This document shows positions 1 through 3,679 of a stretch of 64,000 nt of DNA, piece after piece. A program made the position numbers and the translations under genes. Location of the stretch: positions 1 through 64,000 of the IMG/VR virus record IMGVR_UViG_3300023184_004167, one strand, 5' to 3'. The notes under the pieces are model-generated. The model saw only the letters and a program-made list of their open reading frames with translations. It had not been told where the DNA came from and did not search any database. The DNA comes from a virus. Every line of letters starts with the position of its first letter. Within the stretch, counting starts at the first letter, position 1.

Positions 1-840
1 AAGGATTATTTTTATTCCCCTCATATCCAGTAACTTTTGATTACTAATTCTTAATACCGATTAGTTAGACTAATCACTCCTTGAGATATTGGTTACTCTC
101 TTACTACTCCACTCTCTTAAGCCTTGCGAGCTTACTCAGGATTCGACTCCTTAGAGGTTTTTGGTAAAAATACATATTGACTTGGGGTCTTTATGTGCCT
201 CTGACAGCCAGAGACTATGTAGGTACCTGTCACCAACATCTGACGGACACTTTTCCTTGATTGATTAATTTGATTAACTTATTCAAAGTTTTAGTGGTTA
301 GTGGATTGAAAAGGAAGCGGTCCGTCGCCAGCTCAGTTATCTTTTGAACAACCGAATACTAAACTCCCTTATGCAACATCCCTGTCGCCATATTTTTGCT
401 CATCTTCAAAACAAAACCCTTGGTAGAGTTAGGTTAAGGACAACAACAGCACCACCTGTACGATGTCATACCTTTCGGCTTTAAGACAACCTTAATATTG
501 GACTACGTAGTAATGAAGTTGGATAACAACATTTCCCACATAAGTCCTACGGATTATTCTTATTGATGTTCCCATCTCAACCTGACAACCCACATTGCCA
601 AGTAATTTAACCACATCTCCTACAGTGTTACCCTCGGGTACTGAGGTTAAATTATATTCCGCCTGTGTGCTTAAGATTATTACTAATCCGCAACTTACTT
701 AAACCAAGTAAGTCACTTTATCCCGATTTCTCGGTTTATTTGATGACTACACACCGCCAATTATCTTTTATCAGTAAACATCTCAAAATCAACCCGAAGG
801 TCTCATTATCAATATCCTGAATGGATAATATTTTTATTCA
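1..840 (-). ncRNA. Putative large structured non-coding RNA (GOLLD/ROOL-type candidate)
   Basis: No open reading frame of useful length exists here on either strand, yet the DNA is visibly richer in G and C than the AT-rich genes around it, as expected for a structured RNA. Hairpins seen directly: 118-134 (5-bp stem), a long-range helix pairing 242-248 with 320-326 continued by 253-258 with 311-316, a perfect 8-bp hairpin at 693-713, and 723-734, which read on the minus strand is CCGA-GAAA-TCGG, a GNRA tetraloop. The tetraloop and the neighbouring tRNA-like gene favour the minus strand. Giant ornate phage RNAs (GOLLD, ROOL) are known to sit beside phage tRNAs, so that class is the first candidate, but I could not match a consensus. 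The RNA may continue beyond position 1. The ends given are approximate. Confidence 0.6.
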
Positions 841-859
841 AAGAACTATTAAATTTAAA

Positions 860-980
860 GAAGATGCTGGAATATTTACAACCACCCATTCCCCCCACTT
901 GTAATCACCGATTTTATTTTTAATTTTAAAAATTACTTTCGGTAGGGAAAGAATAATGGAATCTTTACAACCCCATCTTC
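860..980 (-). ncRNA. Stem-bounded RNA element, 121 nt
   Basis: The ends pair as a 7-bp closing stem: GAAGATG at 860-866 with CATCTTC at 974-980. Inside there is an A/T hairpin near 921-940 and an imperfect direct repeat, GGAATnTTTACAACC, at 869-883 and 958-972. It lies between the large RNA candidate and the repeat-spaced tRNA-like array and resembles the other stem-bounded units of that array. Strand is inferred from the tRNA-like gene. Function is unknown. Confidence 0.35.
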
Positions 981-985
981 TTCAT

Positions 986-1038
986 TTGTTTCACAAAGTT
1001 AAGAAGAACTTTTCAATTAATCAAATCTTTTTGAAACT
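986..1038 (-). repeat. Hairpin spacer repeat, copy 1
   Basis: First of three copies (others at 1131-1180 and 1360-1410) of a roughly 50-nt sequence. Its ends, GTTTCA and TGAAAC, are complementary, with a second short helix CAAAG/CTTTT just inside, so each copy can fold into a hairpin. It directly follows one stem-bounded element and precedes another, so it may be a processing or spacer signal in a polycistronic RNA. Confidence 0.75.
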
Positions 1039-1043
1039 TTTTT

Positions 1044-1129
1044 TTTTCGGTTTGATTCACCAGTAGCGACATCACCATACCGCTCTTCCAATCAATTCTT
1101 TTTAGGGAATCTGAAGAATTACCCCGAAA
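1044..1129 (-). ncRNA. tRNA-like stem-bounded element, about 85 nt
   Basis: The ends TTTCGG and CCGAAA pair and match the ends of the adjacent tRNA-Met-like gene. On the minus strand the interior contains a stretch resembling a tRNA D-arm (TTGGAAGAGCGG). I could not build a regular T-arm or anticodon arm, so this may be a degenerate or unusual tRNA, or another structured RNA. It sits between two copies of the hairpin spacer repeat. Confidence 0.35.
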
Positions 1130-1130
1130 T

Positions 1131-1180
1131 GTTTCACAAAGTTAAGAAGAATTTTTCATTCAGTCAAATCTTTTTGAAAC
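1131..1180 (-). repeat. Hairpin spacer repeat, copy 2
   Basis: Second copy of the GTTTCA...TGAAAC hairpin repeat. It lies immediately 3' (minus strand) of the tRNA-Met-like gene. The outer stem is conserved while the central part differs by several bases from copy 1, which suggests that the fold matters. Confidence 0.75.
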
Positions 1181-1189
1181 TTTTTTTTG

Positions 1190-1261
1190 TTTCGGGAGTT
1201 GGATTTGCACCAACGACTAAAAGCTTATGAGACTTTTCTGCTACTACTGCATTATCCCGAA
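1190..1261 (-). tRNA. tRNA-Met-like (anticodon CAT)
   Basis: The minus strand folds as a cloverleaf. The 7-bp acceptor is TTCGGGA/TCCCGAA. The anticodon arm is AAAGT-CTCATAA-GCTTT with anticodon CAT. The variable loop is TAGTC and the T-arm is GTTGG-TGCAAAT-CCAAC, followed by discriminator A. The D-arm is weak: a 3-bp stem (TGC/GCA) and a loop lacking the usual GG pair, so the gene is somewhat degenerate. CCA is not encoded. It could be an elongator or initiator Met tRNA, or an Ile tRNA read after lysidine modification; the sequence does not decide. It sits in an array of stem-bounded elements beside a large structured RNA candidate. Confidence 0.75.
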
Positions 1262-1294
1262 ATATAATATATTTAAAGAACTAATTTTAAAAGA

Positions 1295-1337
1295 AGTCCC
1301 ACAAACTTTTAGGTTTTCTCAAACCATTCGTGGGACT
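1295..1337 (-). ncRNA. Small stem-bounded RNA element, 43 nt
   Basis: An 8-bp closing stem (AGTCCCAC at 1295-1302 with GTGGGACT at 1330-1337) encloses a perfect 5-bp hairpin (GGTTT-TCTC-AAACC, 1312-1325). The 7-8-bp closing stem resembles a tRNA acceptor, but the unit is far too short for a tRNA. It lies between copy 3 of the spacer repeat and the tRNA-Met-like gene. There is no T-tract suited to a terminator on either side. Confidence 0.45.
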
Positions 1338-1359
1338 CGGTGAGACTCTCATCTCATTT

Positions 1360-1410
1360 GTTTCACAAAACTAAGAAAAAATTCTCATTTAATCAAATTT
1401 TTTATGAAAC
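1360..1410 (-). repeat. Hairpin spacer repeat, copy 3
   Basis: Third and most diverged copy of the 50-nt repeat (GTTTCA at 1360-1365, TGAAAC at 1405-1410). A 79-codon plus-strand reading frame over this copy is not credible as a gene because it runs through the repeat and the RNA elements. Confidence 0.7.
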
Positions 1411-1472
1411 TTTTTGTTTGGGGGATGTTCGTCCTTTCAGACGTAGCTTTATAAATATCCCCATATTCCCCA
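1411..1472 (-). ncRNA. tRNA-mimic element, about 60 nt
   Basis: An 8-bp end stem (GTTTGGGG/CCCCAAAC) closes two internal hairpins: AATAT-CCCC-ATATT and CGTC-CTTTCA-GACG. The result is a reduced cloverleaf with an acceptor-length stem but too short for a functional tRNA. It is the 5'-most unit (minus strand) of the array. The remainder, 1473-1564, shows no gene. Confidence 0.4.
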
Positions 1473-1564
1473 AACGACTACAAAGATATAAAATATTTTT
1501 TAAAAAGTCAAAAAAAATCCTGATAATTTTCATATCAGGACTTTTTTCATATTATGTTTTTTAT

Positions 1565-3679
1565 TTATTTCTGAACTAACATTCTAATGGTTTTTCTTGT
1601 ATTACCTATAATATATGTCACAAAATAAATACCATTTTGTAAATTACTATTGGTTATGGTTTTACTAAACACACCCAAATAACTTTGTGTTGTATAATTT
1701 CCAACCAATCTACTATACATATCAAATATTTGAATTTCAACTATTGAATTTTTTTGTGATGATGATTCAACATTTAAACTAAATGTACCATTATTTGGAT
1801 TTGGATATAAATTAACTTGGTCAATGGTTAAGTATTCATTACTCGCACCTCTTTGACCCACAGCACAATTTAAGTGTGTTAATGTTTTAGATACCGCAGC
1901 TCCTAATGCTCCACAAGTTGTTGAACTTTGTACTTTAAGTGCTCCTCCTCTAAACCCCGCATTAAATTGTAATGTTATAACAGAACTATCCATATTTGCA
2001 GATATGATTGTTGTTGATGCCGGTATTGTCCACCTAAATACAGTTATTGGTAATATTACTGAAGCCGCTGGTGATATTACAATGAAATTAACTGAACTTC
2101 CAATACAAGCATTATAGAATCCTGTATTTGAAATAAATGTAATTACTTTTGCCGGTGAGAATGATATTCCCTTTGCGGCTCCAAAATTTCCACAAGCCGA
2201 TTCCCCTTTAGCCGATAATCCCCCACCATTATAACCAGCATCAAAACTTAAATTAATTGAACTACTATCAGCATTTGCAGATATTATTGTTGTAAATGCA
2301 GGTTTAGTCCATCTGAATTTAATTGCGGGTACTTGTGCTATTGTAGGAATAGGATTTGTTAATGTATAATTAACTATTGCCCCAACACAAGGTGTTATTG
2401 TTCCATTTATTGCTGTTGGTGTTGGTGGTGCCGCTCTTGCAAATGCTAATGATGTTGCAGGTATTGAACCTATAGAATTACTTAATGAAACCGTAGCACC
2501 CCCTGAAGATTTTACAATAGTACTTATTGTATTAGTTCCTTGTCCGTTTGTTATGATATTACCAGCCCCACCTAAAACCCAAGCATAATAAACACCACTT
2601 TGATTCGCAACAGTGAATGTTCTAATTGTATCACATGTTTGAGGTTGAATTGAGGTTGTAATAGTAACAGGTGTTGGTAATCCTGTCGGCATTACACAAG
2701 TTCTTGTTATACTATCTGATGGGGGTGTACCCGTACAATTTGCAGGACTTGTTGTATAAGTTCTTATTTGAGTACCATTACTACAACTTGTCCATATTCC
2801 ATAAGTAAATGTACAAGGTAATCTACAAGTTCTTGTTATACTATCTGTTGGTGGTGTACCCGTACAATTTGCTGGACTTGTTGTATATGTTCTTGTTTGA
2901 GTTGTTCCGTTACAAGTTGTCCAACTACCATAAGTAAATGTACAAGGTAAACTACAAGCTCTTGTTATACTATCTGTTGGTGGTGTTCCAGTACATCCTG
3001 CAGGACTTGTTGTATATGTTCTTGTTTGAGTTGTTCCGTTACAAGTTGTCCAACTACCATAAGTAAATGTACACGCTGGTGGTGCAACATATTGATTTGA
3101 TGTTAATGATGTTGTGTAAACAAAATCACCTGTTTCATCACCACTATTATTACCTGCAACCGCTGCAATATAGAATTTAACTCTTGATTGTACCGCAGTT
3201 GGTACAGCTGGTGCAACCCAAGTTAAATTAGAATAAGTGTATGTTGCAGATGCCGTTGATGTTGGAGCATTTGCATGACTTAATTCATAATTACCATTTG
3301 CAATTGTTGGTGTTCCTTTTATGGATGTGTTAGTATTTTGTGTCACCCAAGTTCCAATAACTGCGTGAGTTAAAGTATCTATCGCTTTAATTGATACTCC
3401 CCATATTAATCTGTTTGCCGCAGAGTGAGTGATTTTAATGCTAAAAGGATATGATTGTCCTGCAGTAAATGTTGTAGGTAATCCGATAGCGGTTACACTA
3501 CCACCAGCAGGATTAACAGTTCCACTATGACAACTTGTGCAATTTCTTACTGTTGTACCGTTTAATGATGGTGCCGTTGAATATCCTGTCGGACAATTTG
3601 GATTACTTAAAACGAAAGCCGAACACATAAAAATTAATGTGGTTACAGCAATTAAAATTCTTTTGTTTAGTTTTTTCAT
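1565..3679 (-). CDS. Secreted T9SS cargo with choice-of-anchor-like N-terminus and three thrombospondin-like repeats
   Basis: This 704-residue protein starts with a signal peptide (about 1-25). A domain around residues 28-195 carries a CTSCH motif (47-51) followed by a Gly-rich beta region, as in Bacteroidota 'choice-of-anchor'/Reeler-like secreted proteins. CxxCH could bind haem, but the context fits the secreted-domain family better. Three 43-residue tandem repeats (203-331) have the pattern W..C....Q.RTY.....C.G....D, thrombospondin-1-like. Two Ig-like stretches follow. The C-terminus (about 625-704) is a T9SS sorting domain (NLYPNPNNGTF... ending in NGIYFV and a Lys/Arg-rich tail). It would be exported by the Sec and T9SS machinery of the host to the cell surface. 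No virion role is evident. It heads a cluster of secreted proteins that look host-derived. Confidence 0.85.
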   Translation of the reverse strand: MKKLNKRILIAVTTLIFMCSAFVLSNPNCPTGYSTAPSLNGTTVRNCTSCHSGTVNPAGGSVTAIGLPTTFTAGQSYPFSIKITHSAANRLIWGVSIKAIDTLTHAVIGTWVTQNTNTSIKGTPTIANGNYELSHANAPTSTASATYTYSNLTWVAPAVPTAVQSRVKFYIAAVAGNNSGDETGDFVYTTSLTSNQYVAPPACTFTYGSWTTCNGTTQTRTYTTSPAGCTGTPPTDSITRACSLPCTFTYGSWTTCNGTTQTRTYTTSPANCTGTPPTDSITRTCRLPCTFTYGIWTSCSNGTQIRTYTTSPANCTGTPPSDSITRTCVMPTGLPTPVTITTSIQPQTCDTIRTFTVANQSGVYYAWVLGGAGNIITNGQGTNTISTIVKSSGGATVSLSNSIGSIPATSLAFARAAPPTPTAINGTITPCVGAIVNYTLTNPIPTIAQVPAIKFRWTKPAFTTIISANADSSSINLSFDAGYNGGGLSAKGESACGNFGAAKGISFSPAKVITFISNTGFYNACIGSSVNFIVISPAASVILPITVFRWTIPASTTIISANMDSSVITLQFNAGFRGGALKVQSSTTCGALGAAVSKTLTHLNCAVGQRGASNEYLTIDQVNLYPNPNNGTFSLNVESSSQKNSIVEIQIFDMYSRLVGNYTTQSYLGVFSKTITNSNLQNGIYFVTYIIGNTRKTIRMLVQK
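2687..3073 (-). repeat. Three tandem 129-bp repeats encoding thrombospondin-like units
   Basis: Three consecutive in-frame 129-bp units lie in the T9SS cargo gene. The two units nearest the N-terminus (higher coordinates) are almost identical in DNA. The third has diverged (W.SCSNGTQ in place of WTTCNGTTQ), suggesting recent duplication of the first pair. Confidence 0.8.

Follow-up and report, generated by a model that had tools for sequence, protein, structure and literature searches.

The array of small structured RNA units in the analysed DNA, termed the window here (64 kb from the start of a 138,365-bp IMG/VR virus record), forms the leader at the 5' end of a GOLLD RNA. With a probability of roughly 0.7, it serves in a Bacteroidota phage as the leader from which a GOLLD operon is transcribed and works in the manner of a ribosomal RNA operon leader. 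This reading is built on the observed order and orientation of the elements, the enrichment of their motifs, their conservation, the stems that close the units and the tight link to GOLLD. All five units and all three repeats of the preliminary description were recovered at their positions on the minus strand, and its picture of an ordered, conserved and co-oriented RNA region, in which stem-bounded units are separated by a conserved element, is supported. GOLLD itself (371..1), the promoter motif within the repeats, a fourth promoter (1481–1511) and boxA-like sites at 838–846 and 1273–1281 were additional to that description.

The GOLLD locus and its relatives

GOLLD is a giant phage RNA that forms large RNA-only cages, and to our knowledge no function has been assigned to it. 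The covariance model RF02032 matched the window at 371..1 with 251.8 bits against a cut-off of 150, which places the conserved 3' domain at 1..371 on the minus strand with its 3' end cut by the contig start. It is preceded by the 5' domain (372..830 on the minus strand, approximate limits), which contains CTTAAAGCCGAAAGGTATG and whose core and layout are common to the window and the 60 loci described below. The available part of PMC12286853 gives a 5' region of ~420 nt for the published structure and reports a tRNA-Met just 5' of GOLLD env-38; GOLLD beside tRNA-Met and GOLLD cages are already known from that source.

An exact 22-mer of the repeat matched eight other viral contigs, seven of which carry GOLLD; the eighth, G007, ends ~120 nt past the repeats. 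Aligned regions of G001 and G007 were ~75% identical to the window overall. A motif search with the GOLLD 5' domain returned at least 118 new loci, 78 of which were analysed first and 40 kept as held-out. The 78, the window and seven relatives made up a first set of 86, reduced to 80 with 650 nt upstream and to 60 after removal of loci with shared 14-mers; 27 of the 40 held-out loci were of sufficient length and not already in the first set. As the selecting motif was derived from this clade, all counts cover the GOLLD of this clade and not that of other hosts. Rfam placed 15 of 20 core-selected loci above the GOLLD cut-off, the other five having <360 nt after the core. The same element order was found in LR745206 (634,780 bp). 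Few if any useful relatives came from BLAST against phages and plasmids; the genome contigs searched lacked a stricter GOLLD motif, and two Bacteroidota genomes gave no GOLLD.

In transcription order, on the minus strand, the locus opens with a 704-aa ORF (1565–3679) that lies before promoter P1 (TTGAC-N18-TATCTTTG, 1481..1511). Repeats of 129 bp lie within the ORF, and its C-terminus carries a Por_Secre_tail sorting domain, an unusual feature for a phage and one that points to a Bacteroidota host. P1 is followed by unit A (1411..1472), a leader RNA with an outer stem, an invariant AUAUUUAU, a GNRA-type hairpin and then ACAUCCCC. Repeat copy 1 (1360..1410) contains promoter P2 (1366–1396) within the inverted repeat GTTTCA...TGAAAC, and directly after P2 stands a small hairpin GAGATGAGAGTCTC (1342..1355), the identical 14-mer of which occurs in 7/60 loci. 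There follow a hairpin AGTCCCAC...GTGGGACT with UUCUUUU behind it (1337–1295), the boxA-like GTTCTTTAA (1273..1281) and tRNA-Met (CAT; 1189..1261). Repeat copy 2 (1131..1180, P3 at 1137–1167) then precedes unit H (1045..1129), and repeat copy 3 (988..1037, P4 at 994–1024) precedes unit G (858..980), P3 and P4 also lying within the inverted repeat. The boxA-like GTTCTTTGA (838..846) stands immediately 5' of GOLLD.

Other RNA genes were seen near GOLLD in several loci. Calls for tmRNA genes lay ~0.5–1.7 kb from it in L024, L025, L057, L075, L082, L084, L288, L304, L322 and L325, the last with an overlapping group I intron call, and large arrays of at least 10 tRNAs lay downstream in L038 and L078 and upstream in L062.

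Promoter motifs and a boxA-like site before GOLLD

Each repeat copy holds TTTGA-N19-TAnnTTTG, the form of a Bacteroidota promoter (TTG-N20-TAnnTTTG), directly followed by a stem-closed RNA unit. In total the window has four copies of this sigma-A type motif (TTG-N-TAnnTTTG), with fixed spacing and pointing at GOLLD. TAnnTTTG at -12 to -5, the -7 box, is the flavobacterial consensus in the available part of PMC9723704. In the 60 non-redundant loci (41,663 nt) the motif occurred 145 times in sense and 7 times in antisense, compared with 3.7 (max 9) in shuffled sequence, and a far-upstream control of 59,894 nt gave 13 sense and 7 antisense matches. At least one promoter was present in 58/60 loci, at least two in 50/60 and at least three in 26/60. 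The held-out loci repeated this with 63 sense versus 5 antisense matches and at least one, two and three promoters in 26, 24 and 11 of the 27 loci, respectively; the spacing allowed differed among scans (N17–22, N18–20 and N18–22). A further promoter, in the loop of the 1295–1337 hairpin, is shortened and lost in the window and intact in relatives. Judged by these boxes, the repeated element is primarily a promoter and not the processing hairpin of the preliminary description, as the boxes persist in loci where the inverted repeat does not. Transcripts are predicted to start ~5 nt after TTTG.

The strict boxA-like sequence GTTCTTTGA was found between -600 and -250 of the GOLLD 5'-domain core in 55/60 loci, with none in antisense and 0.3 in shuffles, and a looser form preceded GOLLD in 59/60. 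In the held-out set the site lay upstream of GOLLD in 26/27 loci, again with none in antisense. It sits between promoter and untranslated RNA, as required for an rRNA-type leader, so that the typical GOLLD leader runs promoter, 5–6-bp hairpin, boxA, GOLLD; L036, L044 and L065 each lack either the promoter or the boxA. Nus-dependent sites (rrn or lambda nut) place a hairpin and boxA close to the transcript's 5' end. The GOLLD leader likewise has both, in the order promoter, hairpin, boxA that is found in rrn. The motif was also observed between upstream promoters in G003 and L033, and where a tRNA-Met lies upstream, boxA stood ≤70 nt before it in only 5/17 loci.

The leaders of Bacteroidota 16S rRNA were similar. 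GTTC[AT]TTGA occurred within 300 nt in only 37/76 and GTTCTTTGA in 15/76, with 0/76 in antisense, and the same promoter motif lay within 500 nt in 69/71, with at least two copies in 36/71 and antisense matches in 5/71. Both kinds of leader thus combine tandem TTG..TAnnTTTG promoters, boxA and a long structured untranslated RNA; the GOLLD leader differs in being phage-encoded, in driving GOLLD and tRNA-Met and in having small structured units between its promoters.

A reciprocal search was performed with a 26-base pattern of the hairpin and boxA leader that holds no GOLLD sequence. It matched 80 viral loci, 74 of which had a promoter ≤60 nt upstream. Among the 65 with enough downstream DNA, the GOLLD core was detected by pattern in 64, and the 65th, L283, has GOLLD by Rfam. 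When Rfam was run on 20 reciprocal loci, nine passed the GOLLD cut-off and the other 11 hold <700 nt after the leader. From its motifs, the region is very probably a stack of promoters that, with a boxA-like site, feeds GOLLD.

Relative to known GOLLD loci with tRNAs (RF02032), the window matches by its 3' domain and by the tRNA-Met 5' of GOLLD. Unlike the window, the GOLLD descriptions in the available part of PMC12286853 mention no promoter stack, boxA or stem-closed units. In the open-access literature, outside which the original GOLLD description falls, no paper was found that links GOLLD with boxA, tandem promoters or mapped starts.

tRNA-Met, stem-closed units and the inverted repeat

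ARAGORN, in default and intron mode, and Rfam each called a single tRNA in the array, at 1189/1190–1261, which bears out the tRNA-Met-like unit of the preliminary description. Its 57.3 bits fall within the 51–63.5 range of the tRNAs at the same place in relatives. The other four units, previously described as tRNA-like or mini-cloverleaf, gave no tRNA call by Rfam (E≤5) or by ARAGORN with or without introns, and 1295–1337 is a single hairpin with an 8-bp arm followed by UUCUUUU; the GTTTCA repeats have no such U-run in sense, a U-run behind a GC-rich hairpin being the mark of an intrinsic terminator. The window array therefore has one true tRNA in common with phage tRNA arrays, its other units being promoter-separated and not tRNAs. 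The T-loop of the tRNA-Met, TGCAAAT, is unusual, G001 and G008 having the usual TTCGAAT, and this altered tRNA may be decaying or specialised.

Unit H consists of a 45-nt hairpin unit (TTTCGG/CCGAAA) and a 40-nt module (1104–1065) placed in a 7-nt loop, AUUCCC^A, and G001 and G007 have the unit at 100% identity to the window. On three other viral contigs a tRNA-Gly(UCC)-like gene (L326:12340–12452, minus; L327:4518–4630, minus; L328:1794–1905, plus) carries, in its anticodon loop, an insert that matches the module at 97.5% identity. There the insert follows anticodon-loop position 37, and Rfam also places the insertion in the anticodon loop. Once the insert was removed from the L328 copy ARAGORN called tRNA-Gly(tcc), and in intron mode it called a gene with a 40-nt intron in 3/3. 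These copies would fit a minute intron or, alternatively, a shared RNA module. The module was absent from 395 Bacteroidota genomes at up to 3 mismatches, and an uninterrupted close copy of the tRNA-Gly was not found in viral contigs; among five uninterrupted relatives suggested by BLAST, ARAGORN called no tRNA-Gly, with no tRNA in three and tRNA-Arg in two. A conserved non-coding stretch surrounds the interrupted tRNA-Gly at L326:12070–12600 (minus) and is nearly the same in L327; apart from the tRNA it has no Rfam match and is possibly another large RNA.

Support for the stems said to close each unit came mainly from comparison among loci. Fold z-scores were -2.8 for 860–980, -0.8 for 1044–1129, -3.2 for the tRNA, -5.6 for 1295–1337 and -1.6 for 1411–1472, so that for two of the five units the fold alone is within chance. 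A position-free closing-stem test on 63 inter-promoter segments of 70–330 nt gave no significant signal. A position-limited test, chosen after the position-free rows had been viewed and then repeated on held-out loci, used 43 segments of 60–160 nt, 42 of them distinct. The mean helix score of inter-promoter end stems was 14.4 against 11.4 ± 0.40 for permuted ends in the first set (0/1000 permutations, n=42) and 14.1 against 11.2 ± 0.80 in the held-out set (0/500, n=11); a cruder count of helices of at least 6 bp in the first set gave 23 against 17.3, reached in 24/1000 permutations. The end stem begins near the predicted transcript start and finishes at the A-tract of the next promoter.

Patterns for unit families, composed after inspection of the sequences, were found among the 60 loci for A (18), C (10), G (9), F (7), J (7), I (6), D (5), E (5) and H (2), with 0 in antisense. 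The hairpin of unit A covaries, with 18 double-changed cells and a score of 0.735 against ≤0.136 for slid versions. Family G, which in the window has a long closing stem, a symmetric internal loop and an apical hairpin, carries UNGUAAAGNUU on both strands of the internal loop; by RNAalifold its covariation is weak (3/11 pairs with double changes), in our view partly from misalignment. On the strand opposite unit A the invariant AUAUUUAU reads ATAAATAT (TATAAATA in the window), a sequence that we take to resemble a T4-type late promoter. Weak Rfam matches to Hatchet, C0465 and RAGATH-25 (E 0.7–2, far under cut-off) were taken as chance.

The window has three matches to the GTTTCA...TGAAAC pattern, whereas none arose in 100 shuffles, and in the window's group the arm pairs are GTTTCA/TGAAAC, GTTTAC/GTAAAC, GTTCTA/TAGAAC and GTCCCAC/GTGGGAC. 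In the first set arm pairing was 4.0 versus 3.3 (0/300 permutations), and 31/145 promoters had at least 6 exact arm pairs versus 8.8 expected. In held-out loci it was 3.44 versus 3.39 (100/300, not significant). The inverted repeat was therefore dropped as a general feature, and it and any hairpin formed by read-through are limited at most to the window's group. The conservation check proposed in the preliminary description was thus positive in relatives for stems and repeat, the inverted repeat itself not extending to the held-out set. In the window and G001 the stem of hairpin 1337–1295 is kept despite loss of the promoter, which suggests an independent use for the RNA hairpin.

Proposed mechanism and alternative readings

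In the proposed mechanism, host RNA polymerase carrying the primary Bacteroidota sigma factor would start at the promoter row P1–P4, all aimed at tRNA-Met and GOLLD, and every transcript would open with a small stem-closed leader RNA. In most loci the transcript would then cross boxA and recruit a Nus antitermination complex, which would allow polymerase to complete the long untranslated GOLLD RNA, escaping both Rho-dependent and intrinsic termination. RNA started at an upstream promoter would run across those further downstream, and in the window's group such read-through RNA could fold at the inverted repeat of a promoter; the promoter's own RNA could not, as its start is expected inside the 3' arm. 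The resulting hairpin may separate units by processing or limit interference. Operation as an rRNA-like antitermination leader is probable; promoter activity, Nus binding, processing and the purpose of the arrangement, high-level synthesis of GOLLD and tRNA during infection, we infer.

The put RNA of phage HK022 and the EAR RNA act in cis as antitermination RNAs, and the stem-closed units might themselves be such a device, acting on the polymerase that has just made them with boxA assisting. Their position directly after a promoter and before a long untranslated RNA fits the put/EAR type, as do the recurrent families with conserved cores (A, C, G, F and I in 18, 10, 9, 7 and 6 of 60 loci) and the covarying hairpin of unit A; we consider this unlikely, however, given that many loci have only a 5–6-bp hairpin there and that family members are highly diverse. 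The units could instead be separate small RNAs, such as regulators, tRNA-nuclease decoys or GOLLD-cage cargo, grouped for joint action with GOLLD. Each is equipped with a promoter and a closing stem, unit H and a tRNA-Gly anticodon loop have a module in common and tRNAs are discussed as possible cage contents in the available part of PMC12286853. That possibility is rather doubtful, as most units are not tRNA-like, unit sets vary among relatives and most units, having no terminator, would be read into GOLLD. The decoys put forward in the preliminary description are rejected as a general account because only one unit is a tRNA, and are left for unit 1045–1129 alone, the module of which is shared with the tRNA-Gly-like anticodon arm; nothing points to the primer system also raised there. 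It is conceivable but unlikely that Bacteroidota phages assemble GOLLD leaders from interchangeable cassettes of promoter and stem-closed RNA, that these RNAs are a new cis-acting or co-packaged set and that the unit H module was exchanged with a tRNA-Gly(UCC) gene of other viruses like a minute mobile intron.

Arms that still pair across sequence changes in the window's group (31/145 versus 8.8) would also suit a processing hairpin that cuts a polycistronic precursor, with the promoter match secondary. Such pairing is absent at 16S promoters (0/105 with at least 6 arm pairs) and weak elsewhere on the contigs (10/116 versus 4.7), and the 1295–1337 stem has outlived its promoter in the window and G001. 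It seems improbable all the same, since the arms were not seen in held-out loci where the promoter boxes persist. That the arms are operator half-sites through which a phage regulator would repress or time the promoters is very unlikely: they bracket the promoter exactly, and GTTTCA/TGAAAC is identical in three copies, but arm sequences differ between promoters of one phage (e.g. G005 and G008), which is awkward for a single regulator. There is an equally slim chance that GTTCTTTGA, lying near the 5' end of GOLLD in all but a few loci, is simply part of the GOLLD fold; the motif also stands before tRNA-Met, between upstream promoters and before 16S rRNA, away from GOLLD.

The reading of the region as an rRNA-style transcription leader would tell how the phage has GOLLD made, namely by host polymerase, from several promoters and with an rRNA read-through signal, a combination that predicts very high synthesis of full-length untranslated RNA. 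The 26-base leader pattern, with its 80 loci, provides a GOLLD-specific sequence handle, and the units form a catalogue of small structured RNAs. The phage seems to handle GOLLD like ribosomal RNA.
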